From NCBI RefSeq assembly GCF_001657485.1, contig NZ_LXFU01000025.1:62001-126000 (forward strand): a stretch of DNA of 64,000 nucleotides, given 5' to 3'. The position numbers and the translations under genes are program-made. The notes beneath the pieces were generated by a model, which did not search any database, was not told the origin of the DNA, and saw only the letters and a list, made by a program, of their open reading frames with translations. How positions within the stretch are numbered: the stretch's first letter is position 1; each line of letters begins with the position of its first letter. Shown piece after piece: positions 7,294-38,840 of the stretch. This DNA comes from Rhizobium sp. WYCCWR10014 (GTDB lineage Bacteria > Pseudomonadota > Alphaproteobacteria > Rhizobiales > Rhizobiaceae).

Positions 7294-8745
7294 ATGACTG
7301 GCGAGTATGAAACCGCGCCGAGGCTCTTCATTTCTTATTCATGGAGCAGTGCCGATCATCAGGCCTGGGTCGTTGAGTTTGCCGGTCAACTGCGACATCA
7401 GGGAATCGATGTTATCCTTGATAAATGGCATCTTAAGCCCGGACACGACGCAAACGCGTTTATGGAGAAGATGGTGACTGACAAGACGGTCACCAAGGTT
7501 ATCCTTATATGCGACGAAGTTTATGCGAAAAAATCAGATGGACGAAAAGGCGGTGCTGGGACAGAGGCACAGATCATCACGCCTGAACTCTACGCTGAGC
7601 GCGAACAAGACAAGTTTGTGGCGGTGGTCCGTGAGAATGACGAACATGGTAAGGCCTATCTGCCAACGTACTATGGGAGCCGCATCTATATTGATCTCAG
7701 CAGCCCAGCTACGTATGCTCAGGAATTCGAGCGCGTGGTTCGCTGGGCCTGGGACGCGCCTTGGGACGTTCCGCCGGAGATCGGCGCCAAGCCCGCTTTT
7801 CTTAACTCCAAAAGTTTGGCTGGAAAGCCGGCCGATCTCGGAAGTCGGCGGATTATCGAGGCTATGCGCAACGGCTCCGCACATGCCGCAGCTGCAGCCG
7901 GCGAATTTTTAGGGTCCCCCGATACAATTTTCGAAAAGTTTCGTCTAGCCTCCGCACAGGTTATTGGCGAGAATTACGACGATGTCGTAGTCGATAACGT
8001 TGATAAATTCGTTCCCTACAGGAACGAATTTATCTCCTTATTCACTGCGATAGCGCAGTATCAGCCAACACCTGAATTGGTGGGAATTGTCCATCGGTTT
8101 TTCGAACGTCTGATCCCCTACCTCCATCCACCGACGAACGCTAGTTCATACTCCGATGTTGACCAGGACAACTACCAGTTCATTGTGCATGAGCTGTTTT
8201 TGTATTGGATGGCTACGCTCTTGAAATATGAGCGATTTGACGCGGCCTCTACAGTGATCGACGACCAATACTATTGGAATTCGCGCCGTAGACCTGATGA
8301 GACCATGCATAATTTTACTATTTTTCGGGAATACGCTAAGAGCTTCGATATAAGAAGTGAGCGCCTTAAGTTGAAGCGAACATCAATTCGGGCCGACATG
8401 TTAAAGGAACGGAATGAAGGCACAGGCATCGATTTTGCGTATGTTTTATGTGCCGACTTTATATTCTATTTTAGGGCTACGAAATTCAATGATTACAACA
8501 GCTGGTGGCCGGAAACCCTGTTGTATGTCGATCGTCATGGTGGACCATTTGAGATGTTTGCACGAGCGAAGTCGGCCCGTTACTTTGAGCGCATCAAGCA
8601 TCTAGTGGGTGTGAAGAACGTGCAGGAGCTGTCTGCATATATTTCAGGCCTTCTTGCAGATGCAAACTCAATTCCCCGGTGGCAGTTTGACAGGCTCAAC
8701 ATAAAGCGCCTCATGGCGTCGGATAATATTGCTTCAACCCCCTAG
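7294..8745 (+). CDS. SEFIR (TIR-like) domain protein, putative defence effector
   Basis: A 483-residue protein. Residues about 10-150 form a SEFIR domain, the TIR-related fold: RLFISYSWSSADHQAWV, then DVILDKWHLKPGHDANAFM and TKVILICDEVYAKK, with the run AGTEAQIITPELY typical of bacterial SEFIR proteins. Residues 150-483 match nothing I recognise and show no membrane segment. Bacterial SEFIR and TIR proteins are often nucleotide-consuming effectors of anti-phage systems; that role here is inference. Codon use is clearly more AT-rich than the neighbours, with many tta, ata, aat and ttt codons. It sits between intact comM and a decayed comM 3' fragment, so it was probably acquired horizontally. 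A -10-like TATACT and TATAGAT lie about 50 bases upstream. Confidence 0.85.
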   Translation: MTGEYETAPRLFISYSWSSADHQAWVVEFAGQLRHQGIDVILDKWHLKPGHDANAFMEKMVTDKTVTKVILICDEVYAKKSDGRKGGAGTEAQIITPELYAEREQDKFVAVVRENDEHGKAYLPTYYGSRIYIDLSSPATYAQEFERVVRWAWDAPWDVPPEIGAKPAFLNSKSLAGKPADLGSRRIIEAMRNGSAHAAAAAGEFLGSPDTIFEKFRLASAQVIGENYDDVVVDNVDKFVPYRNEFISLFTAIAQYQPTPELVGIVHRFFERLIPYLHPPTNASSYSDVDQDNYQFIVHELFLYWMATLLKYERFDAASTVIDDQYYWNSRRRPDETMHNFTIFREYAKSFDIRSERLKLKRTSIRADMLKERNEGTGIDFAYVLCADFIFYFRATKFNDYNSWWPETLLYVDRHGGPFEMFARAKSARYFERIKHLVGVKNVQELSAYISGLLADANSIPRWQFDRLNIKRLMASDNIASTP

Positions 8746-28270: not shown

Positions 28271-28369
28271 AGCATGTCGCGCAAAAGTGTGCAGCGGTTT
28301 TGCGAAAACGACATGTGCAAAAACAAAGACCTAAAGCGCGAAGATCTGAAAGATCGCGACGCGCTTTAG
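28268..28369. repeat. RIME-like palindromic repeat, full copy A3
   Basis: A 102-base element filling the entire gap between two convergent LysR genes. It opens TAAAGCATGTCGCGCAAAAG and contains GTGTGCAGCGGTTTTGCG, ACGACATGTGC, CAAAGACCTAAAGCGCG, and closes with GATCGCGACGCGCTTTAG. The two halves each form hairpins. The stop codons of both flanking genes are made by its ends. Confidence 0.85.
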
Positions 28370-29241
28370 TTCAGCAGGCTGATCAGGTTCTCGGTGACCG
28401 GCGAGCGATGTGTTTTCAGGATTGCCAGAGCCAGGCGCGCCACGGCCGGCGGCCCTTCGATCGGCCGGTAGGCCACACCTTCGAGCTTGATCTGCGAAAT
28501 CGAGGCCGGCACGATCGAGACGCCGAGATCGGCCGCCACCAGATTGACGACCGAGGAAATCTGCGGCGCCTCCTGTGCCACGGTCAGCTCGAATCCCGCC
28601 TTGCGGCAGGCAAGCACGACATCGTCGTAAAGGCTCAAGCCCACGAGCCGGGGAAAGAGGATGAAGGGTTCGTCCACGAGCGCCGCAAGCGGTAGCTCGC
28701 TGCGCCGTGCCAGGGGATGGCTGGCGGGCAGGGCAATCACCATCGGCTCGTCCGGCAGCCGCCGCAGCCGGATGCCCGTGGGATCGTCGAGGCTGGGGCG
28801 CATGAAGGTGGCGTCGAGCTCGCCGCGTTCCAGCTTCTGCATCAGCGCCAGCGTGTTCATTTCCGTCAACGACAGCTGCACCTCCGGCCAGCGCGCGCGA
28901 AACCGGCGGATCGTCGTGCTGACCACGGGGTTGAAGGCGGAGGAGGCGGTGAAACCGAGCGACAGCCGGCCGGTCTCGCCGCGATTGGCGCTTTGCGCCG
29001 CAAGCTTCGCCTTTTCCGCGGCCGCCAGCGAAGCCTTTGCCTCGCCGAGGAATGCTGCGCCCGCCGCCGTCAATTCGGCGCCGTGCGGCACGCGGTGAAA
29101 CAGCGCCGCACCCACTTCCCTCTCCAGGTCGCGGATCTGCTGACTGAGCGGCGGCTGCCCGATACCGAGCTTGGCGGCGGCGCGGGTGAAATTGCCTTCT
29201 TCCGCCACTGCCAGGAAATACCTGAGATGCCGCAGCTCCAT
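28366..29241 (-). CDS. LysR family transcriptional regulator
   Basis: A 291-residue LysR regulator of the BenM/CatM/CbbR branch (MELRHLRYFLAVAEEGNFTRAAAKLGIGQPPLSQQIRDLE). The ATG at 29241 has GGAG seven bases upstream; a TTG four codons earlier is not needed. It is divergent from an MFS transporter gene (29333) with a 91-base spacer holding the likely operator, so it probably controls the transporter and the following VOC gene. Its TAA stop lies in the end of a palindromic repeat. Confidence 0.92.
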   Translation of the reverse strand: MELRHLRYFLAVAEEGNFTRAAAKLGIGQPPLSQQIRDLEREVGAALFHRVPHGAELTAAGAAFLGEAKASLAAAEKAKLAAQSANRGETGRLSLGFTASSAFNPVVSTTIRRFRARWPEVQLSLTEMNTLALMQKLERGELDATFMRPSLDDPTGIRLRRLPDEPMVIALPASHPLARRSELPLAALVDEPFILFPRLVGLSLYDDVVLACRKAGFELTVAQEAPQISSVVNLVAADLGVSIVPASISQIKLEGVAYRPIEGPPAVARLALAILKTHRSPVTENLISLLN

Positions 29242-29332
29242 CGCTATCTCCAAAACCTATCGGAATCGACGGTCTCATATATTGGACAAATGGAGGCGCT
29301 TTGACTAGATCGGAGGTCGGAAGGATGAAGAT

Positions 29333-30966
<1,634 letters not shown>

Positions 30967-31086: not shown

Positions 31087-31329
31087 TCATTTGAAGAAGG
31101 CGAGTTCGGATCGCTCCTGCCCGACAGGCTGTTCTTCCACCGCCGTCGCAAAATCGGGATCGACTGGACTGGTCACGTTGACAAGCCAGTCCCAATTATC
31201 GGAAATCGGCTCGAGAATGATCGCACGCCCCTGCCGTCGAATGGTGACGCTATCGCCGTCGAAACGGAATTCCTTGGGCAGCAGGACGGCTTGAGAGCGC
31301 CCCGACCAGAAGATCTTTGCTGTTTCCAT
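31087..31329 (-). CDS. orphan VapB-type antitoxin
   Basis: An 80-residue protein with an AbrB/MazE swapped-hairpin N-terminus (AKIFWSGRSQAVLLPKEFRF), typical of VapB antitoxins, and an acidic C-terminal tail for toxin binding. The start at 31329 (METAKIF) matches the family. A vapC toxin should follow immediately on the minus strand, but only about 120 bases separate the stop from the VOC gene and no PIN-domain frame is present in them, so this is an antitoxin without its partner. Confidence 0.85.
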   Translation of the reverse strand: METAKIFWSGRSQAVLLPKEFRFDGDSVTIRRQGRAIILEPISDNWDWLVNVTSPVDPDFATAVEEQPVGQERSELAFFK

Positions 31330-31376
31330 GTCATGGCTCCCGATGAGATGTGACAATGATACATAGCAATTTTTGA

Positions 31377-33038
31377 TCAACCAAGCCGGATGTAGGGCAC
31401 GTCCTTCTTCGCCACCTCATCAAGCGCCTCCTCGTAACCGGCATCGGCGTAACGCATGACGCCGAGCGCCGTATCGTTGGTCAGCGCATGGTCGAGCCGT
31501 TCGTCGGCGGCGTCCGTGCCGTCGGCGACGACGGTGACGCCACAGCTCGTCATGTAGCCGGCATAGCCGCCGCCGCCGGAATGGATGACGACCAGATCGG
31601 CCATCGACGAGCAGAGCATCATCGCATCGATCAGCGGCCAGTCGGCAATCGCGTCGGAGCCGTCTTTCATCCCCTCGGTCATGATATTCGGATGCGCCAT
31701 GGCGCCGGCGTCGAGATGATCGCGGGAGAAGGCGACCGGGCCTTTGAGTTCGCCGCTCGCAACCAGCGTGTTGACGCGCCTTGCGAGTGCGGTGCGTTCG
31801 CCGTGGCCGAGCCAGGCGATGCGGGCCGGCAGTCCCTCGAAGGGCACATGCTCGCGCGCCAGCCGGATCCAGTTGGTGATGATCTTGTTATCGGGAAACA
31901 TTTCCAGCAGCACGTCGTCGATCCGGGCGATATCGCTCTCCTCGCCCGATAGCGCCATCCAGCGGAACGGGCCGATCGCCCGGGCAAACAGCGGCCTGAG
32001 ATAGGCTTCGGTGAAGATCGGGATGTCAAAGGCATTGGCGACGCCGCCCTCTTTGGCCTGCGTGCGGATCAGATTGCCGTTGTCGAAGACTTCCGAGCCG
32101 CGCTTCTGGAATTCCAGCATCGCCGTCACATGGTCGACGATCGAGGCGCGGCTTGCCGCCATCAATTGCCCCTGGCCGTCGTCACGCAGGCCCTTGACCT
32201 GCTCGAGGCTCATGCCCTTCGGCACGTAACCGTAGACGAGGTCATGCGCCGAGGTCTGGTCGGTGACGATGTCGGGCACGATGCCGCGCCGGGCGATCTC
32301 GGGATAGACCTCCGCCGCATTGCCGACGAGGCCGACGGACAGCGCCCGCTTGTCCTTCACCGCCGCATCGATCATCTGAAGGGCGGTATCGAGATCGGGC
32401 GCGATTTCCTGGAGATAACCGATCTGCTGGCGCTTGCGGGCCCGCTCCGGGTCGATGTCGATGCAGAGGATCGCAGCCCCCGCCATGCGGCCGGCAAGCG
32501 GCTGCGCCCCGCCCATGCCGCCGAGGCCGGCCGTCAGCACGAACCGGCCGAGGAGATCGCCGCCGAAGCGCCGCTCGGCAATGCGCATGAAGATCTCGTA
32601 GGTACCCTGGATGACGCCCTGGCTGCCGATATATTGCCAGGCGCCGGCCGTCAGCCCGCCCCAGCAGATCAGTCCCTTGCGCTGCAGCTCGTAGAACACT
32701 TCGGCCTTTGCCCATTGCCCGACGATATTGCAGTTCGCCATGATGACCAGCGGCGCCTTGGCATGCGTTCGAACGAGGCCGATCGGCTTGCCGGACTGGA
32801 CGAGCAGCGTCTGGTCCTCTTCCATCTCGGTCAGCGCCTTGACGATGCCTCTATGCGCCGCCCAGTTGCGGGCCGCCTTGCCGAGCGCGGCATAGACGAC
32901 CAGATTGTCGGGATCCTCGCCGACGGAGAGCACGTTTTCGAGCAGCCGCAGCAGCGCCTCCTGCCGCCAGCCCTTGGCCCGCAGTTCCGGCCCGCCGGGA
33001 ATCGGAAATTTCGGATGACGTGGATTGGCCTTCGGCAT
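31377..33038 (-). CDS. urocanase-family hydratase, probable (S-methyl-)thiourocanate hydratase
   Basis: A 553-residue relative of urocanate hydratase, an NAD-dependent enzyme that adds water to the imidazole-acrylate system. The overall family is clear (YIGSQGVIQGTYEIF, CIDIDPERARKRQQIGYL, GPFRWMALSGEE). Two regions depart from classical HutU as I know it: WGGL (residues 126-129) in place of YGQM, and SGGGGYAGYMTSCG (487-500) in place of the GGGVGMGYSQHAG block. Together with the MIO-less lyase, the DUF917 protein, the hydantoinase and the carbamoylase of the same cluster, this points to thiourocanate or its S-methyl derivative as substrate. Classical urocanase in histidine breakdown is the alternative. 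Five bases are overlapped by no neighbour; it is the last gene of the cluster. Confidence 0.8.
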   Translation of the reverse strand: MPKANPRHPKFPIPGGPELRAKGWRQEALLRLLENVLSVGEDPDNLVVYAALGKAARNWAAHRGIVKALTEMEEDQTLLVQSGKPIGLVRTHAKAPLVIMANCNIVGQWAKAEVFYELQRKGLICWGGLTAGAWQYIGSQGVIQGTYEIFMRIAERRFGGDLLGRFVLTAGLGGMGGAQPLAGRMAGAAILCIDIDPERARKRQQIGYLQEIAPDLDTALQMIDAAVKDKRALSVGLVGNAAEVYPEIARRGIVPDIVTDQTSAHDLVYGYVPKGMSLEQVKGLRDDGQGQLMAASRASIVDHVTAMLEFQKRGSEVFDNGNLIRTQAKEGGVANAFDIPIFTEAYLRPLFARAIGPFRWMALSGEESDIARIDDVLLEMFPDNKIITNWIRLAREHVPFEGLPARIAWLGHGERTALARRVNTLVASGELKGPVAFSRDHLDAGAMAHPNIMTEGMKDGSDAIADWPLIDAMMLCSSMADLVVIHSGGGGYAGYMTSCGVTVVADGTDAADERLDHALTNDTALGVMRYADAGYEEALDEVAKKDVPYIRLG

Positions 33039-33071: not shown

Positions 33072-33401
33072 TTATTTCCTGGGCAGCGATTCCACATAGG
33101 CGAGCGCCGCATCGAGCAAACGCCGTCTCAGGGTATCGTCGCCATAAACTTCGGCACCGCCTCGCACCCAGCCATGCATCACACGCTCGCCCGACAGCAT
33201 CTGGATCACGTCCGGCAGTGCCAGCGCCCAGCCGTCATTGCCCTTGCCGAGACGGATCAGCATGCCGTCATGGCGCGCGCAGCAGAGAAGATTGCCGTTC
33301 AGCATGAAGGCCCAGCCGCCGAACATGGATTTTTCGGCAAGGCCGGGTCGATCGCCGAGTTCCTCACGCATCAGTTCTTCGAGACCCCGATCGCGCGCCA
33401 T
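33072..33401 (-). CDS. TfoX/Sxy N-terminal domain protein
   Basis: A 109-residue protein of the TfoX N-terminal family: AEKSMFGGWAFMLNGNLLCCARHDGMLIRLG carries the MFGG signature. Stand-alone domains of this kind are common in rhizobia and their function is unknown; full-length TfoX is a competence regulator in other bacteria. The start follows the DUF917 stop by three bases and a 33-base gap leads to the hydratase gene, so it is a true operon member. A role in the pathway is not established. Confidence 0.85.
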   Translation of the reverse strand: MARDRGLEELMREELGDRPGLAEKSMFGGWAFMLNGNLLCCARHDGMLIRLGKGNDGWALALPDVIQMLSGERVMHGWVRGGAEVYGDDTLRRRLLDAALAYVESLPRK

Positions 33402-33404
33402 GGC

Positions 33405-34502
33405 TCAGGCCTTCGTCGCCAGTGCGTAGCGTGCGATCTCGATCCCCATTGCCTTTTCGACGACGGGATAGACGGTCGGATCGAGCACGCTTGCCGACAG
33501 CGGAATGATATCCATCGGTACATGCAGGATGAACACCCGCATCCCCTCCTTGAGCTGGCCGACGCTGAGCGGCTCGCCCTCTGGTGAAAGCGTGGTGATG
33601 ACGGCAGGAAAGGTGGCAAGCCGCCCGCCATCCGCGTCGTCCACCGCCATATATTCGTTCATCACATGCAGCGTCACCGACTTTTCGCCCGCGCCGACGG
33701 TGATCGTGCCGATGTCGAAGGCTTCCTTGGTGTAGACGACGTCCTTGCGGGTAATGACGCCCTCGGCAAGGATATGTCCGCCCGTCGTCTTGCAGATCGC
33801 GTCGATGACGGCAGATCCGCCGCGCTTCTCCGCCGCGATGATTGCCTCGCCGAGCGCAAGCGCCATCGAGATGCCGCCGAGTGCTGCATGGCTGCGGACA
33901 TAGGAGGCTCTCAGCGGATTGCGGCAACTGGCGATGAAGCCGCCGGATTGATCGGCGGCAGCGCGCAGCACCGGCGAGATCTTCGCCGTCGCGCCCTTCA
34001 CCACCAACTCGATATAACGGTTCTCGGCGCGATTGCCGCCGACGGCGGTCTGGATCATTTGCTCGGGCGAACCGGCCATGCCGATCGAGCCCATGTCGCC
34101 TGTGGGATGTGCGCGGATATCCCCGACCGCGTCGACCACCTTGGTACCGAGGATCGCTGACGGCAGCCAGCCGTTCAGCGTCGAGGATTTGCCGTTCTGG
34201 CCGATGATCAGCCCGGAAAGCTTTTCGCCCAGCGCCTCCTGCAGCAATTGCACTGATTTCACATAGTCGATGCCCTGCATTTCCCAGGGGGTGGTGGAGG
34301 CCGGTGCGCCGATCGCGGCCGCAGTCGCAATCCACTCCTCGTCCTTCAACTCGTCGATCGAGACCAGCTCCGGCTTGCCGACATTGACGGCGGCATAACC
34401 GAGCATCCGCCCGTGATCGGCCCAGCCGCCGCCCCCGGCGGCATAGACGGAGCCGCCCTTGACGGCAGCTTCCACGTCCTTCTCAACGAGTATGCGTCCC
34501 AT
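33405..34502 (-). CDS. DUF917 family protein, probable thiohydantoin desulfurase
   Basis: A 365-residue protein of the DUF917 family, now associated with desulfuration of (S-methyl) thiohydantoins. The N-terminal domain includes ALGEAIIAAEKRGG and GASTTPWEMQGIDYVKS-like blocks; the C-terminal beta domain ends in DPTVYPVVEKAMGIEIARYAL. In the proposed pathway it converts 3-(5-oxo-2-thioxoimidazolidin-4-yl)propionate (or its S-methyl form) to hydantoin-5-propionate with release of sulfur. The start overlaps the upstream carbamoylase gene by 20 bases. The family call is firm; the substrate is inferred from context. Confidence 0.85.
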   Translation of the reverse strand: MGRILVEKDVEAAVKGGSVYAAGGGGWADHGRMLGYAAVNVGKPELVSIDELKDEEWIATAAAIGAPASTTPWEMQGIDYVKSVQLLQEALGEKLSGLIIGQNGKSSTLNGWLPSAILGTKVVDAVGDIRAHPTGDMGSIGMAGSPEQMIQTAVGGNRAENRYIELVVKGATAKISPVLRAAADQSGGFIASCRNPLRASYVRSHAALGGISMALALGEAIIAAEKRGGSAVIDAICKTTGGHILAEGVITRKDVVYTKEAFDIGTITVGAGEKSVTLHVMNEYMAVDDADGGRLATFPAVITTLSPEGEPLSVGQLKEGMRVFILHVPMDIIPLSASVLDPTVYPVVEKAMGIEIARYALATKA

Positions 34503-35763
34503 CGGTCCTCTCCTGATTCAAGCTCTTGTCCATTTCGCGCACCGCTTCGAAAAGCACGGCGGTGCCGAGCGCGATATCGTCGTTTTCAGCCCACTCGTCG
34601 GCCGAATGGCTGCGGCCTTCCCGGCAGGGCACGAAGATCATCGCCGCCGGCGCCACCTTGGCGATCCAGGCCGTGTCGTGTCCTGCGCCAGAGGCCATAC
34701 GCCGATGTTTTGCGCCGACACGTTCGCAGGCGGCCTCCAAGGTCGACAGCAGCCCGGCATCAGCAGGCGTCGGCAGATTGTCGGAAACCCGGTTCGGGGT
34801 CGTGATCGTCACGCTGTAGGCCCCCGCCAGCTTTTCGACATGGCCGTCGAGCCAGCGGCAGAACGCCTCCATGTCGGCACGGATTTCGGCACGGCCGTCG
34901 ATCAGCAGCACTACTTTCGACGGCACGACATTGGCGGCATTCGGCTCGATGCGGAATTCGCCGACCGTCGCTGCAAAGTGACCCGGCGTTTTGGCAAGCT
35001 CGGCAGCGGCATTGCGGATGTCGAGCACCAGCTGCGATGCCGCGACCAGTGCATCCGCCCGCCGGTCCATCGGCGTCGTGCCGGCATGGTCGGCCCGCCC
35101 TTCGACGATGATCTCGATGCGGGTGATGCCTGATATCGCAGTGACGATGCCGACATCCTCCTTTTCGGCTTCGAGCACCGGGCCCTGTTCGATATGGAGC
35201 TCGAGAAAGCCGGCTATATCGGGTCTGTTCTGCTGCATCAGCACATCAGGTCTGCCGCCGACCTCGGCGATGCCGGCAGCCAGGTCACGCCCGTCGCTGA
35301 CGCGCGAAAGCCAGGCCTCCGGCAATTGGCCGGTCATGCCGCGGCTGCCGATGCAGGACACGCCGAAGATGCTGACCTCCTCGGCGAGAAAGTCGACGAT
35401 TTCGAGATCGTGATCGAGCTCGATATTCTGGTCACCAAGCGCGCGCGCCACCTCCAGCGCCGAGATCACGCCGGCAATACCGTCGAAGCGGCCGCCGTCC
35501 GGCACCGTGTCGGAATGCGAGCCGACCATGATCGTGCCGAGCCACGGCTTTCGGCCTGTCCGCCGTCCGACCAGATTGCCGGCGGCATCAATCCGCGTTT
35601 CCAGTCCTGCTGCCTTCATCCGCGCGTCGATATAGGCTCGGCCGTCGAGAAAGAGCGGCGAGAAGGCCCGCCGCGTCCACGGATGCCCCGGCTCGGTAAT
35701 CTCGGCCAGCGTCTCGATATCTTCAGCGATCCGGCTGGCATTGACGGGAAGATTGCGGCTCAT
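34483..35763 (-). CDS. M20 family N-carbamoyl amino acid hydrolase
   Basis: A 426-residue Zn-dependent amidase/hydantoinase/carbamoylase of the M20 family. The metal site shows GSHSDTVPDGGRFDG, LAEEVSIFG, and HIEQGPVLE; the dimerisation domain has DHAGTTPMDRRADAL, typical of L-carbamoylases and allantoate amidohydrolases. In the proposed route it cleaves N-carbamoyl-L-glutamate to glutamate, ammonia and CO2. It overlaps the amidohydrolase gene by four bases and the DUF917 gene by 20. Confidence 0.88.
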   Translation of the reverse strand: MSRNLPVNASRIAEDIETLAEITEPGHPWTRRAFSPLFLDGRAYIDARMKAAGLETRIDAAGNLVGRRTGRKPWLGTIMVGSHSDTVPDGGRFDGIAGVISALEVARALGDQNIELDHDLEIVDFLAEEVSIFGVSCIGSRGMTGQLPEAWLSRVSDGRDLAAGIAEVGGRPDVLMQQNRPDIAGFLELHIEQGPVLEAEKEDVGIVTAISGITRIEIIVEGRADHAGTTPMDRRADALVAASQLVLDIRNAAAELAKTPGHFAATVGEFRIEPNAANVVPSKVVLLIDGRAEIRADMEAFCRWLDGHVEKLAGAYSVTITTPNRVSDNLPTPADAGLLSTLEAACERVGAKHRRMASGAGHDTAWIAKVAPAAMIFVPCREGRSHSADEWAENDDIALGTAVLFEAVREMDKSLNQERTDGTHTR

Positions 35764-37139
35764 GCTTCAGCTCCCGCAATGACCTGGCGCGGCAGCGGCC
35801 GTACGAAGTGCCCGGTGCCGGGCTTGGCCAGCACCTTCGCGCCCTCGGCGATCTCTTCGCCCCTGAGGTAGGTGGCGGAAACGGTCCAGGGCAGGCGGAT
35901 GCCGTTATAGGGGCTCCAGCCGACGACATTGTTGCCGCTCGCGGCGGCATCATAGACACTGTCGCGCGGCTCCAGCACGACGATATCGGCGTCCTTGCCC
36001 GGCGTCAGCGCGCCCTTGATATGGTCGAGCCGGAAATGCTTCGCCGGGTTCTCCGCCATCAGCCTGGCTGCCCATGTCAGCGGTATGCCGCGTTCGATGG
36101 CCCCTTTGACGAAAAGCGGCACCATCACCTCGAGGCCGGGAACGCCGGAGGCGTTGGCGAGCATGTCGGGATTGGTCTTGCGGTTTTCCGACCAGCTGAC
36201 GTGATCGGTCGAGACCAGCCAGACATCGCCCTCCGCCACCTTCCGCCAGAGCCTCTCCACCTCGGCGCGCGGCCGCACCGGCGGATTGATCTTCGCCTTG
36301 CCGCCGAGCCGCTTCACGTCGTTTTCCTCGTCGAGCGTCAGGTAGTGGATGCAGCATTCCACCGTCGCCGCATAACCGTCGCGGCGATAGGCGCGCGCGA
36401 TATCATAGCCGCGCCCGAGCGAGCAGTGCACCACATGCGCCGGGCAGCCGGTATTGGCGCCGGTCTCGAAGATCGTGTGCATCGCCAGCAGCTCGGTGAT
36501 CGGCGGCCGTGACAGGCCATGCGCCCGCCAGTCGGTGATGCCGCTCGCCTTCACCTGCTCCATATAGGTGCGCACCGCCTCGTCGTCCTCATTGTGCACG
36601 CCGGCTGTCAGCCCCGTCGGAGCGATCGCCGCGAAGCAGGCGTCGAGCAGTGCCGGCGGAATGCGCGGAAAGCGCTTGGGGTCGGTGCCGAAGGTCGAGA
36701 ATTTGAAGGCTGCAACGCCTGCCTCCACCATCTCGCGGATCCGCGCCGGGCCTTCTTCCGGATCGACGGTGCCGTAAAGCGCGAAATCGACGCGCGCCTG
36801 CGGTCCGGCATGGTCGACTTTCCGCTTCACCGCCGCTGCCGAACAGACGAGATTGCCTTCGTCATAGGGCATGTCGACGATTGTAGTCACGCCGCCTGCC
36901 GCCGCCGAGCGCGTCGACCAGATGAAATCCTCCTGGTCCTTCTGCGAAAGCGAATGCACCTGCGCATCGATCGCGCCGGGCAGGATCAGCGCTTTTCCGA
37001 GCAGATGCCGTTCGCGGCCCGCAGGCGGCACGCCGAGGCCGACCTCGGCGATTTTGCCGTCGCGCACGGCGACATAGCCCTCTTCGACAATGCGATCCGG
37101 CAGCACCACCGTGCCCTGCAAAACGAGATCGAAGTCCAT
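35760..37139 (-). CDS. cyclic amidohydrolase (hydantoinase/allantoinase family)
   Basis: A 459-residue amidohydrolase of the dihydropyrimidinase/allantoinase type. Visible are the carboxylated-lysine region AAFKFSTFGTDP, the metal ligands VHNEDDEAV and HVVHCSLG, and STDHVSW. The first metal motif normally written D-x-H-x-H reads DAQVHS, so its first histidine is a glutamine (residue 60). In the proposed pathway it opens hydantoin-5-propionate to N-carbamoylglutamate. Translation is coupled to the carbamoylase gene (ATGA overlap). A palindromic repeat lies between it and the upstream lyase gene. Confidence 0.85.
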   Translation of the reverse strand: MDFDLVLQGTVVLPDRIVEEGYVAVRDGKIAEVGLGVPPAGRERHLLGKALILPGAIDAQVHSLSQKDQEDFIWSTRSAAAGGVTTIVDMPYDEGNLVCSAAAVKRKVDHAGPQARVDFALYGTVDPEEGPARIREMVEAGVAAFKFSTFGTDPKRFPRIPPALLDACFAAIAPTGLTAGVHNEDDEAVRTYMEQVKASGITDWRAHGLSRPPITELLAMHTIFETGANTGCPAHVVHCSLGRGYDIARAYRRDGYAATVECCIHYLTLDEENDVKRLGGKAKINPPVRPRAEVERLWRKVAEGDVWLVSTDHVSWSENRKTNPDMLANASGVPGLEVMVPLFVKGAIERGIPLTWAARLMAENPAKHFRLDHIKGALTPGKDADIVVLEPRDSVYDAAASGNNVVGWSPYNGIRLPWTVSATYLRGEEIAEGAKVLAKPGTGHFVRPLPRQVIAGAEA

Positions 37140-37262: not shown

Positions 37263-38840
37263 TCAGACTGCTGCCGGCTCTAGCCGTTCCTCGATGCGCT
37301 CCAGCGAGCCGAGGGCGAAGAAATCGTCGAAGGAGGCGATCGGAACCTGTTCGGTCAGCTTCGTAACGAAGTCGTCCGAACCAAGTTCCTCCTCGATCGC
37401 CTCCACTTCAGCCGAAAGCGGCCGGTCGACCGTATAGAAATCCGCATGCTTGCGGACGACCGCGTAGAGCATGGCGGCAACACCCTTCGGTTCATCGCCG
37501 AGAATGTCGATCGCCTGGGCCGACAGCAGCGCCTCAAGGGCCGCGAGACGCTTCAGCGCCCGCATCTGCCGGTCGAAACGCTCGATGACGAGCGGCAGGA
37601 AGGCAGCCTCGTCCTCCAGTCCGGCCGCAACCACCAGCGACTGGGCCGACACGGGATTGGACATCGACAGCACGCGCGAGAAGATCTCGCCGGCAAGTTT
37701 GATGATCGGCCCGAAACCGGTGGCTATCCGCCCCGGCGGCACGAGATTGACCGGCAGGTCGCGCCGCTGGCCGTTGCCGAGAATGACGCAGCGGTTGAAG
37801 GCGTTGCGCGCCGCATGCGCCATGCAGAGTGCTGCCGATTCGAGCAGGATCGTTACGTCGAGCGGAAGAGAACCGCCCGATGTCATCACCCGGCCTTCGA
37901 CGACGACGGGATTGTCGTCCGAGCGCCCGGTGGCGGCAAGGATCTTGTGGCCGGTCGATAAAAGGTTTTCGATCACCGCGCCGAACACCTGGGCGATCAT
38001 GCGCAGGCTGAGCGGATCCTGTACATGCGTTGCGACAGGCCAGTTCCATTCGTCGGAGGCATTGCAGAGCCAGGCGCCGATCAGCGCCTCGCGCGCCGTG
38101 CCGACATGCCGGACCGCCTTCCAGGGATCGCGGGAAGCGCCCAGCGCGCCGGCCGCCATCATGGCGGTTGCCAGCAGGACGCGGATCGAGGCCGCGGCGT
38201 TGCGCGTCGTTTCCGCTGCCGAGGCAAAGCTCACCGCATTAATGCTGAGCGAAGCGAGGCTGTCGCGCGGCGCCATCCGCATCGGTTCCAGCCCGGCCGC
38301 CTGGAAAGCCTCGGCCGCCTGCATCCGGTTTCCGCGATAGATTGCTTCGCCGACGCCGGTCAGCACCGCGCCGATCTGTCCCATCAGGCCGATATCCGCA
38401 CAGCCGATCGAGCCGGTACGGCGCACGACCGGGATGAGATCGGCCTCGAGCATCCGGATATAGGCCTGGATCAGCTCCGGCGTGCAGCCGACCTGGCCGG
38501 TCAGCGCCGTGTTGATACGGATCGCCATGGCATTACGCACGATATTGCAGGAAAAGGGTGTGCCGGTGCCGAAATGATGGGCGCGCACCAGGCCGAGATT
38601 GAAGGTGTCGAGTTCGTCGGCCGACCACTCCACATCCTTCATGGCGCCGACGCCTGTCGTCGAGCCGTAGACGGGCATGCCGGAGGCAATGGCATCCTCG
38701 ACGATCTCGCGGGCGATCGCGATGCGGGCCATGCCTGTCGCCGAAGCCGAAATCTTAGCCTTGCCCGCACCAATCGTCACCATCTCGGCAAAACCGAGCG
38801 GTCGTCCGGAAAGTTCGATGCCAAGGCGTTCGTGCTTCAT
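37263..38840 (-). CDS. MIO-less histidine ammonia-lyase relative, probable ergothionase
   Basis: A 525-residue member of the aromatic amino acid lyase (HAL/PAL) fold: PVYGSTTGVGAMK with the catalytic-type tyrosine (residue 58), NIVRNAMAIRIN, and the core GSIG block at residues 143-146. Lyases that act on histidine build the MIO cofactor from an Ala-Ser-Gly triad after GS(V/I)G; here the triad is Cys-Ala-Asp (residues 147-149), so MIO cannot form. Ergothionase, which eliminates trimethylamine from ergothioneine to give thiourocanate, is a lyase of this fold that works without MIO. With the downstream genes, ergothionase is the best call; another amine lyase is possible. ATG at 38840 follows AGGGAGATAGGCAC. 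Confidence 0.82.
   Translation of the reverse strand: MKHERLGIELSGRPLGFAEMVTIGAGKAKISASATGMARIAIAREIVEDAIASGMPVYGSTTGVGAMKDVEWSADELDTFNLGLVRAHHFGTGTPFSCNIVRNAMAIRINTALTGQVGCTPELIQAYIRMLEADLIPVVRRTGSIGCADIGLMGQIGAVLTGVGEAIYRGNRMQAAEAFQAAGLEPMRMAPRDSLASLSINAVSFASAAETTRNAAASIRVLLATAMMAAGALGASRDPWKAVRHVGTAREALIGAWLCNASDEWNWPVATHVQDPLSLRMIAQVFGAVIENLLSTGHKILAATGRSDDNPVVVEGRVMTSGGSLPLDVTILLESAALCMAHAARNAFNRCVILGNGQRRDLPVNLVPPGRIATGFGPIIKLAGEIFSRVLSMSNPVSAQSLVVAAGLEDEAAFLPLVIERFDRQMRALKRLAALEALLSAQAIDILGDEPKGVAAMLYAVVRKHADFYTVDRPLSAEVEAIEEELGSDDFVTKLTEQVPIASFDDFFALGSLERIEERLEPAAV

Follow-up and report, generated by a model that had tools for sequence, protein, structure and literature searches.

PMC13405746, citing Maurer et al. 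2019, describes ergothionase as an enzyme without MIO, gives Burkholderia, Cupriavidus, A. radiobacter and T. denticola as its sources, reports that BLAST with the Burkholderia enzyme yielded only ammonia-lyases, and judges the enzyme to be limited to a few genera, with a warning that divergent homologues might have escaped notice. According to two further papers, an ergothioneine-specific binding protein of other bacteria discriminates against hercynine (PMC9732360), and ergothioneine is made by fungi and actinobacteria and acquired by plants from soil (PMC7653990). A search for the pathway by name in the open-access literature, outside which most subscription papers lie, returned nothing.

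We analyzed a stretch of 64,000 nucleotides from Rhizobium sp. WYCCWR10014 (positions 62,001 to 126,000 of contig NZ_LXFU01000025.1; hereafter, the window) that encodes a protein of the aromatic-amino-acid-lyase family. We propose, with a probability of about 0.87, that this protein is a divergent ergothionase that possesses the HAL fold, lacks MIO and converts ergothioneine to trimethylamine and thiourocanate, because the MIO triad is missing, the protein falls in one clade with the solved ergothionase, the gene shows signs of purifying selection and the operon encodes enzymes for the four later steps. Substrate, reaction and mechanism are each reached by inference. MIO-free ergothionase is already published, and the window enzyme is another member that represents a divergent subfamily.

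The lyase gene starts with an ATG at position 38840 of the minus strand, and codon 147 begins at 38402. As an earlier note on this DNA had stated, positions 38402-38394 read TGT GCG GAT on this strand (codons 147-149, Cys-Ala-Asp), and the codon read-out places GGC TCG ATC GGC (GSIG, residues 143-146) directly 5' of them. The note took these three codons as the substitute for the Ala-Ser-Gly triad; the loss of the triad holds, but the assignment of the third residue does not. At the MIO site, the alignment reads GSVG-ASG-D for the HAL of P. putida, SSIG-EG-D for the T. denticola ergothionase and GSIG-CA-(gap)-D for the window enzyme. Because Asp149 corresponds to the invariant residue that follows the triad in HALs, the triad became two residues, Cys-Ala, with one residue deleted. 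With neither Ser nor Gly in place and a loop one residue shorter than in HAL, the MIO-forming residues are missing, as the note had claimed, and the window protein is predicted to lack MIO. An ASG elsewhere in the protein that could act as the source of MIO is ruled out: the sole ASG (residues 52-54) stands just before Tyr58, falls outside the MIO site in the alignment and lacks conservation (ASG in 28 and other residues in 52 of the best 80 of 279 loci found by a scan of genome contigs for relatives; the 80 loci kept are mostly named Rhizobium and show 73-99% identity). Tyr58 is kept, again in agreement with the note, and yet it does not discriminate between the enzymes because it is present in all rows compared, with or without MIO.

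Table. Features of the lyase gene and its operon in the window, with the evidence for each (best 80 denotes the best 80 of the 279 related loci).
Feature	Positions	Strand	Evidence
Lyase, MIO-free, aromatic-amino-acid-lyase fold, proposed ergothionase (ergothioneine trimethylamine-lyase)	37263..38840	-	525 aa; PF00221; tree; 6S7J best solved match
Cys147-Ala148, the pair that substitutes for the Ala-Ser-Gly MIO triad	38397..38402	-	alignments; 81/81 (window and best 80)
Asp149, counterpart of HAL Asp145, the conserved position that follows the triad	38394..38396	-	alignments
Tyr58 (HAL Tyr53, T. denticola Tyr53)	38667..38669	-	Tyr in 64/64 rows
Asn201 (T. denticola Asn196)	38238..38240	-	Asn in 24/24 window and T. 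denticola types, 4/6 L2-type, 1/28 ASG rows
Leu277, replaces HAL Tyr280	38010..38012	-	Leu in 36/36 MIO-free rows
Asp308	37917..37919	-	Asp in 24/24 window and T. denticola types, 0/40 others
Ser324, replaces HAL Phe329 (T. denticola type keeps Phe)	37869..37871	-	window-subfamily mark, 18/18
Lys381	37698..37700	-	29/30 one-residue-deletion rows, 0/34 others; exception S. meliloti pSymA
ErtD, hydantoin-5-propionate amidohydrolase	35760..37139	-	NF058538, 783.5 bits, cut-off 600
ErtE, N-carbamyl-L-glutamate amidohydrolase	34483..35763	-	NF058540, 629.9, cut-off 520
Thiohydantoin desulfurase, S-Me-THD-like domains	33405..34502	-	NF058529, 601.2, cut-off 440
TfoX_N-domain protein, in operon	33072..33401	-	PF04993, 32.7, cut-off 30.1
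Thiourocanate hydratase	31377..33038	-	NF058530, 1059.1, cut-off 930

The protein is recognized by PF00221 (280.7 bits, cut-off 27.3) and falls far short of the hutH model TIGR01225 (207.5 bits, cut-off 539.15) which, together with the missing triad, justifies the warning of the note against the name hutH. The lyase reached the cut-off of no NCBIfam 20.0 model, although the four other enzymes of the pathway have models; this counts against the proposal. Among the solved structures, the T. denticola ergothionase 6S7J is the best match both by phmmer (6.5e-49; the next, a HAL, 1.6e-38) and by profile search (1.2e-87; the next 2.6e-70), but its identity to the window enzyme is only 27% over 493 residues, a further point against the proposal. 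Foldseek placed 6S7J first and a HAL next, with a small difference between the two and with a poor predicted structure as the query (mean pLDDT 60, low near the active site); this ranking is given no weight, and the model is uninformative on the active site. We built a tree of 59 rows (the 64-row alignment minus five near-copies) with the loop columns removed and midpoint rooting, in which no PAL or TAL outgroup was deliberately included and the composition of 6S7J was flagged as unusual. In this tree, all 26 one-residue-deletion rows, including the window enzyme and 6S7J, are set apart by a 100/100 branch, and the window subfamily is joined, with 98/96 support, to the type found in T. denticola, Burkholderia and Paracoccus. 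The GxGY rows cluster on their own (100/100) and are nested among the ASG rows. The kinship with the T. denticola ergothionase that the note had pointed to is thus recovered by sequence, by profile and by phylogeny. A phylum-wide draw of 398 genomes with the subfamily profile (E up to 1e-90, a threshold that far members may escape) gave 7 positives, all from the same family as the window genome and two of them L2-type by identity, so the window subfamily looks narrow. The lyase of Rhizobium johnstonii 3841 (L047) is 98% identical to that of the window. To our knowledge, no lyase of this subfamily has been assayed.

Beyond the loop, the position of HAL Tyr280 is occupied by Tyr in 27 of the 28 ASG rows (only the engineered Y280F chain 1GKJ departs from this) and by Leu in the MIO-free rows (see the table). 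Four residues are reportedly essential in the T. denticola ergothionase; the candidates Tyr58, Lys381, Glu409, Arg280, Asp308 and Asn201 are all common to the window lyase and 6S7J. In the proposed reaction, the trimethylammonium group of ergothioneine would already be a leaving group, with no free amine to add to MIO, and the lyase would eliminate trimethylamine to give thiourocanate through acid-base catalysis by Tyr58 and some of the other five candidates. Against the proposal, the pocket is expected to differ from that of the T. denticola type because the Phe329 of HAL, kept in that type, is replaced by Ser324.

Downstream of the lyase, which heads the operon, follow on the same strand the genes for ErtD, ErtE, the thiohydantoin desulfurase, the TfoX_N protein (present in 67 of the best 80 of the 279 related loci) and the thiourocanate hydratase. 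ErtE also scores above the cut-off of the unspecific NF009531 (Zn-dependent hydrolase), and the hydratase above that of the general hutU model (696 vs 375). The products of this operon would take thiourocanate through hydration, desulfurization, ring opening and decarbamoylation to glutamate. Both the hydratase and the desulfurase fit the models for the plain thione compounds, whereas with the corresponding S-methyl models they stay below the cut-offs (737.5 against 880 and 283.5 against 450, respectively), and accordingly an S-methyl pathway was rejected for this operon. Against the plain thiourocanate hydratase model, with its cut-off of 930, the window protein scores 1059, that of B. arboris 1050 and that of a P. 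denitrificans plasmid 1046, and in the latter two cases T. denticola-type, one-residue-deletion lyases lie beside the hydratase. Because plain hydratases accompany lyases with the one-residue deletion, and the S-methyl operon of A. tumefaciens has a GxGY lyase, the context points to ergothioneine itself as the substrate of the window enzyme.

Several other genes of the window were considered. A VapB antitoxin gene (31087-31380, minus strand) overlaps the end of the hydratase gene; no VapC-like frame of at least 60 aa was seen after it, and such a frame (130-134 aa) directly follows VapB in three related loci (L044, L093, L118). The genes for a LysR regulator (28366-29253) and an MFS transporter (29333-30583) were considered as pathway genes. 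Several related loci, including some without ert genes, keep them close to the lyase, but the rest of the chromosomal neighborhood is equally kept, so no pathway role is claimed for them. A SEFIR/TIR-domain protein of 483 aa (7294-8745, plus strand), the gene for which has a third-position GC of 0.54, below most of the surrounding genes, was possibly acquired.

An alternative that we regard as improbable is that the enzyme is a trimethylamine-lyase of the same clade with a preference for a relative of ergothioneine (S-methyl-ergothioneine, hercynine or ergothioneine sulfonate). In favor of this are the diversity of the MIO-free clade and Ser324, the sign of a different pocket. In Paracoccus saliphilus, a MIO-free lyase of the T. 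denticola type (L139, 7911-9599) directly follows hutI-hutH-hutG-hutU, a context that would fit hercynine as its substrate, and other members are adjacent to a gene of the ornithine-cyclodeaminase family (Rhizobium sp. CC-CFT758, L144) or separated from one by a single gene (Polaromonas, L137). For the window operon, however, hercynine would make the desulfurase needless, and the S-methyl compound is disfavored both by the model scores given above and by the different, GxGY-type lyase of the S-methyl-type operon of Agrobacterium.

Far less probable still is an ammonia-lyase for histidine or another amino acid that needs no MIO or that uses another electrophile, derived from Cys147. Membership in PF00221, the annotation of a plasmid-borne relative in Rhizobium sp. 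SL42 (58% identity) as an aromatic amino acid ammonia-lyase, and the invariance of Cys147 in the window and the best 80 of the 279 loci could be read in this way. Nevertheless, the hutH model is missed by a wide margin, no hut genes are found among the identified genes of the window operon, and the genome carries a true hutH, with ASG, at a separate site within a hut operon. In the 18 rows of the wider subfamily, moreover, position 147 is Cys in 16, Thr in one and Ala in one, whereas Ala148 and Asp149 are invariant; because Thr or Ala can take its place, Cys147 is unlikely to be catalytic or required.

The reading of the lyase as a sequencing error or a decayed gene, for which no support was found, is refuted by the presence of GSIGCADI in the window and all of the best 80 of the 279 loci with silent codon variation (Cys147, TGT 25 and TGC 56; Ala148, GCG 17, GCA 2, GCC 60 and GCT 2; Asp149, GAT 73 and GAC 8) and by a whole-gene dN/dS of 0.05-0.22 in eight pairs, a pattern that indicates, among these near relatives, a conserved full-length gene under purifying selection.

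All four ert enzymes are encoded beside the lyase in 75 of the best 80 of the 279 loci; one locus of this set (L073) ends at a contig edge, and in four (L120-L123) the lyase has none of the other genes adjoining it, with a hydratase elsewhere in three of the four genomes. In the genome to which L123 belongs, that of Shinella sp. UYSO24, a thiourocanate-hydratase-like gene (G658 C8, 166053-167600) is in pieces, with an in-frame stop, and is decayed or misassembled. In an order-wide survey of 297 genomes (lyase at E up to 1e-60, hydratase over the NCBIfam cut-off), the lyase was detected in 16, the hydratase in 17 and both in 14 (hypergeometric 2e-19 for co-occurrence, uncorrected for kinship); in 13 of these 14 the two genes share a contig and lie no more than about 20 kb apart. 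Against the proposal, two genomes (G119, G182) have the lyase without a hydratase over the cut-off and without any other ert gene on the fetched stretch, and three (G207, G236, G294) have a hydratase without a window-type lyase. Among the 11 lyase genomes for which regions were fetched, the five genes are found together in 8 (in G288, over two adjacent stretches) and are split over two contigs in G282.

A gene for a betaine-type (OpuAC-like) binding protein lies between the lyase and ErtD genes in 7 of the 8 fetched five-gene clusters from other genera, and in the Ochrobactrum quorumnocens cluster it is located upstream on the other strand. No such gene was found near the lyase in any of the best 80 of the 279 related loci with two different queries. 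The contig that carries the lyase also holds, at a distance of about 150 kb, a four-gene betaine-type ABC set (L180, 5290-9138 and 9510-10781; C25). Its binding protein shares 63-73% identity with three binding proteins encoded beside subfamily lyases in other genera, and the divergent LysR gene at this set is related to the LysR genes of many other ert loci. Of 101 genomes of the family, however, 29 have the binding protein (E up to 1e-80), 8 have the lyase (E up to 1e-120) and 5 have both; the binding protein is the more widespread, and the link of this distant set to the lyase is only suggestive.

Against a simple rule for the lyase and its context, seven fetched ert-type clusters (L133-L136, L038-L040) contain no HAL-family gene on the fetched stretch. 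They carry the desulfurase and the hydratase, along with ErtD and ErtE in L133-L136 and ErtD in L040, and the clusters in L133-L136 have neighboring genes annotated as TRAP or amino-acid ABC transporters. Perhaps thiourocanate or another precursor is taken up in these cases.

The window genome encodes five PF00221 members, namely the window lyase (CA-D), L002 (AA-D), hutH (ASG), L004 (ASG) and L005 (GSAGY); besides the window lyase, two of them are MIO-free. The gene for the second MIO-free relative (GSIG-AA-D; L006, 7648-9297, C52) is followed by one for a betaine-type binding protein and then by an ornithine-cyclodeaminase-family gene. The third (GSAGY, with a larger deletion; L007, 16960-18447, C51) is separated from the true hutH by about 8 kb and adjoins ABC-transporter-like genes, of which one permease was tested. 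It is this GSAGY/GxGY type that sits in the S-methyl-ergothioneine-like operon of A. tumefaciens. MIO may have been lost twice rather than once, which is a preference of the best tree and not a result; a single common origin of all MIO-free rows is not rejected (AU test, p 0.229). We tentatively suggest, at somewhat less than even odds, that the HAL superfamily has seen two or more losses of MIO through distinct deletions (a single residue with Asp kept, and a larger deletion that left GxGY), each in enzymes that eliminate trimethylamine from an ergothioneine-type betaine. The window enzyme would then embody a distinct active-site style in the first lineage (Cys-Ala loop, Ser for Phe329), and the MIO-free "hutH" proteins of rhizobia and agrobacteria would constitute a family of betaine trimethylamine-lyases whose substrates are known only in part. 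Under this scenario, MIO would be dispensable because betaine substrates come with their leaving group in place and have no amine free to attack MIO.

These findings correct an annotation trap: MIO-free HAL relatives are named hutH in Rhizobium sp. CC-CFT758 and A. tumefaciens, and the relative in Rhizobium sp. SL42 bears the ammonia-lyase name mentioned above. If the proposed function is correct, ergothioneine can serve as a nutrient for many Rhizobium symbionts of legumes, which would release trimethylamine from it.

Compared with HutH, the window enzyme belongs to the same Pfam family and keeps the equivalents of Tyr53, His83, Arg283 and Glu414 but has neither the ASG triad nor Tyr280. With the T. 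denticola ergothionase (PDB 6S7J/6S7Q), it shares the HAL fold family, two residues before the conserved Asp in place of the MIO triad, the Tyr/His/Arg/Glu framework and, in addition, Asn, Leu, Asp and Lys residues that are mostly missing in HALs; unlike that enzyme, which has a Glu-Gly loop and Phe326, it has Cys-Ala and Ser324 and, at the low identity given above, falls in a separate subclade. The lyase of B. arboris (L131), used as a proxy for the Burkholderia-type HME13 enzyme, is likewise MIO-free, with a Glu-Ala loop and a thiourocanate hydratase and a desulfurase alongside, but it is 29% identical to the window enzyme and groups with the T. denticola type. The operon on pAtAF1_95 of A. 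tumefaciens (L142) resembles that of the window in combining a MIO-free lyase, a hydratase, a desulfurase, ErtD and a Zn-dependent hydrolase, along with a betaine ABC transporter. In contrast to the window operon, its hydratase (976.5, cut-off 880) and desulfurase (536.3, cut-off 450) pass the S-methyl models, a GST and a molybdopterin S/N-oxide reductase are encoded in addition, and the lyase, a GxGY-type protein, is 55% identical to the GSAGY protein L005 of the window genome.
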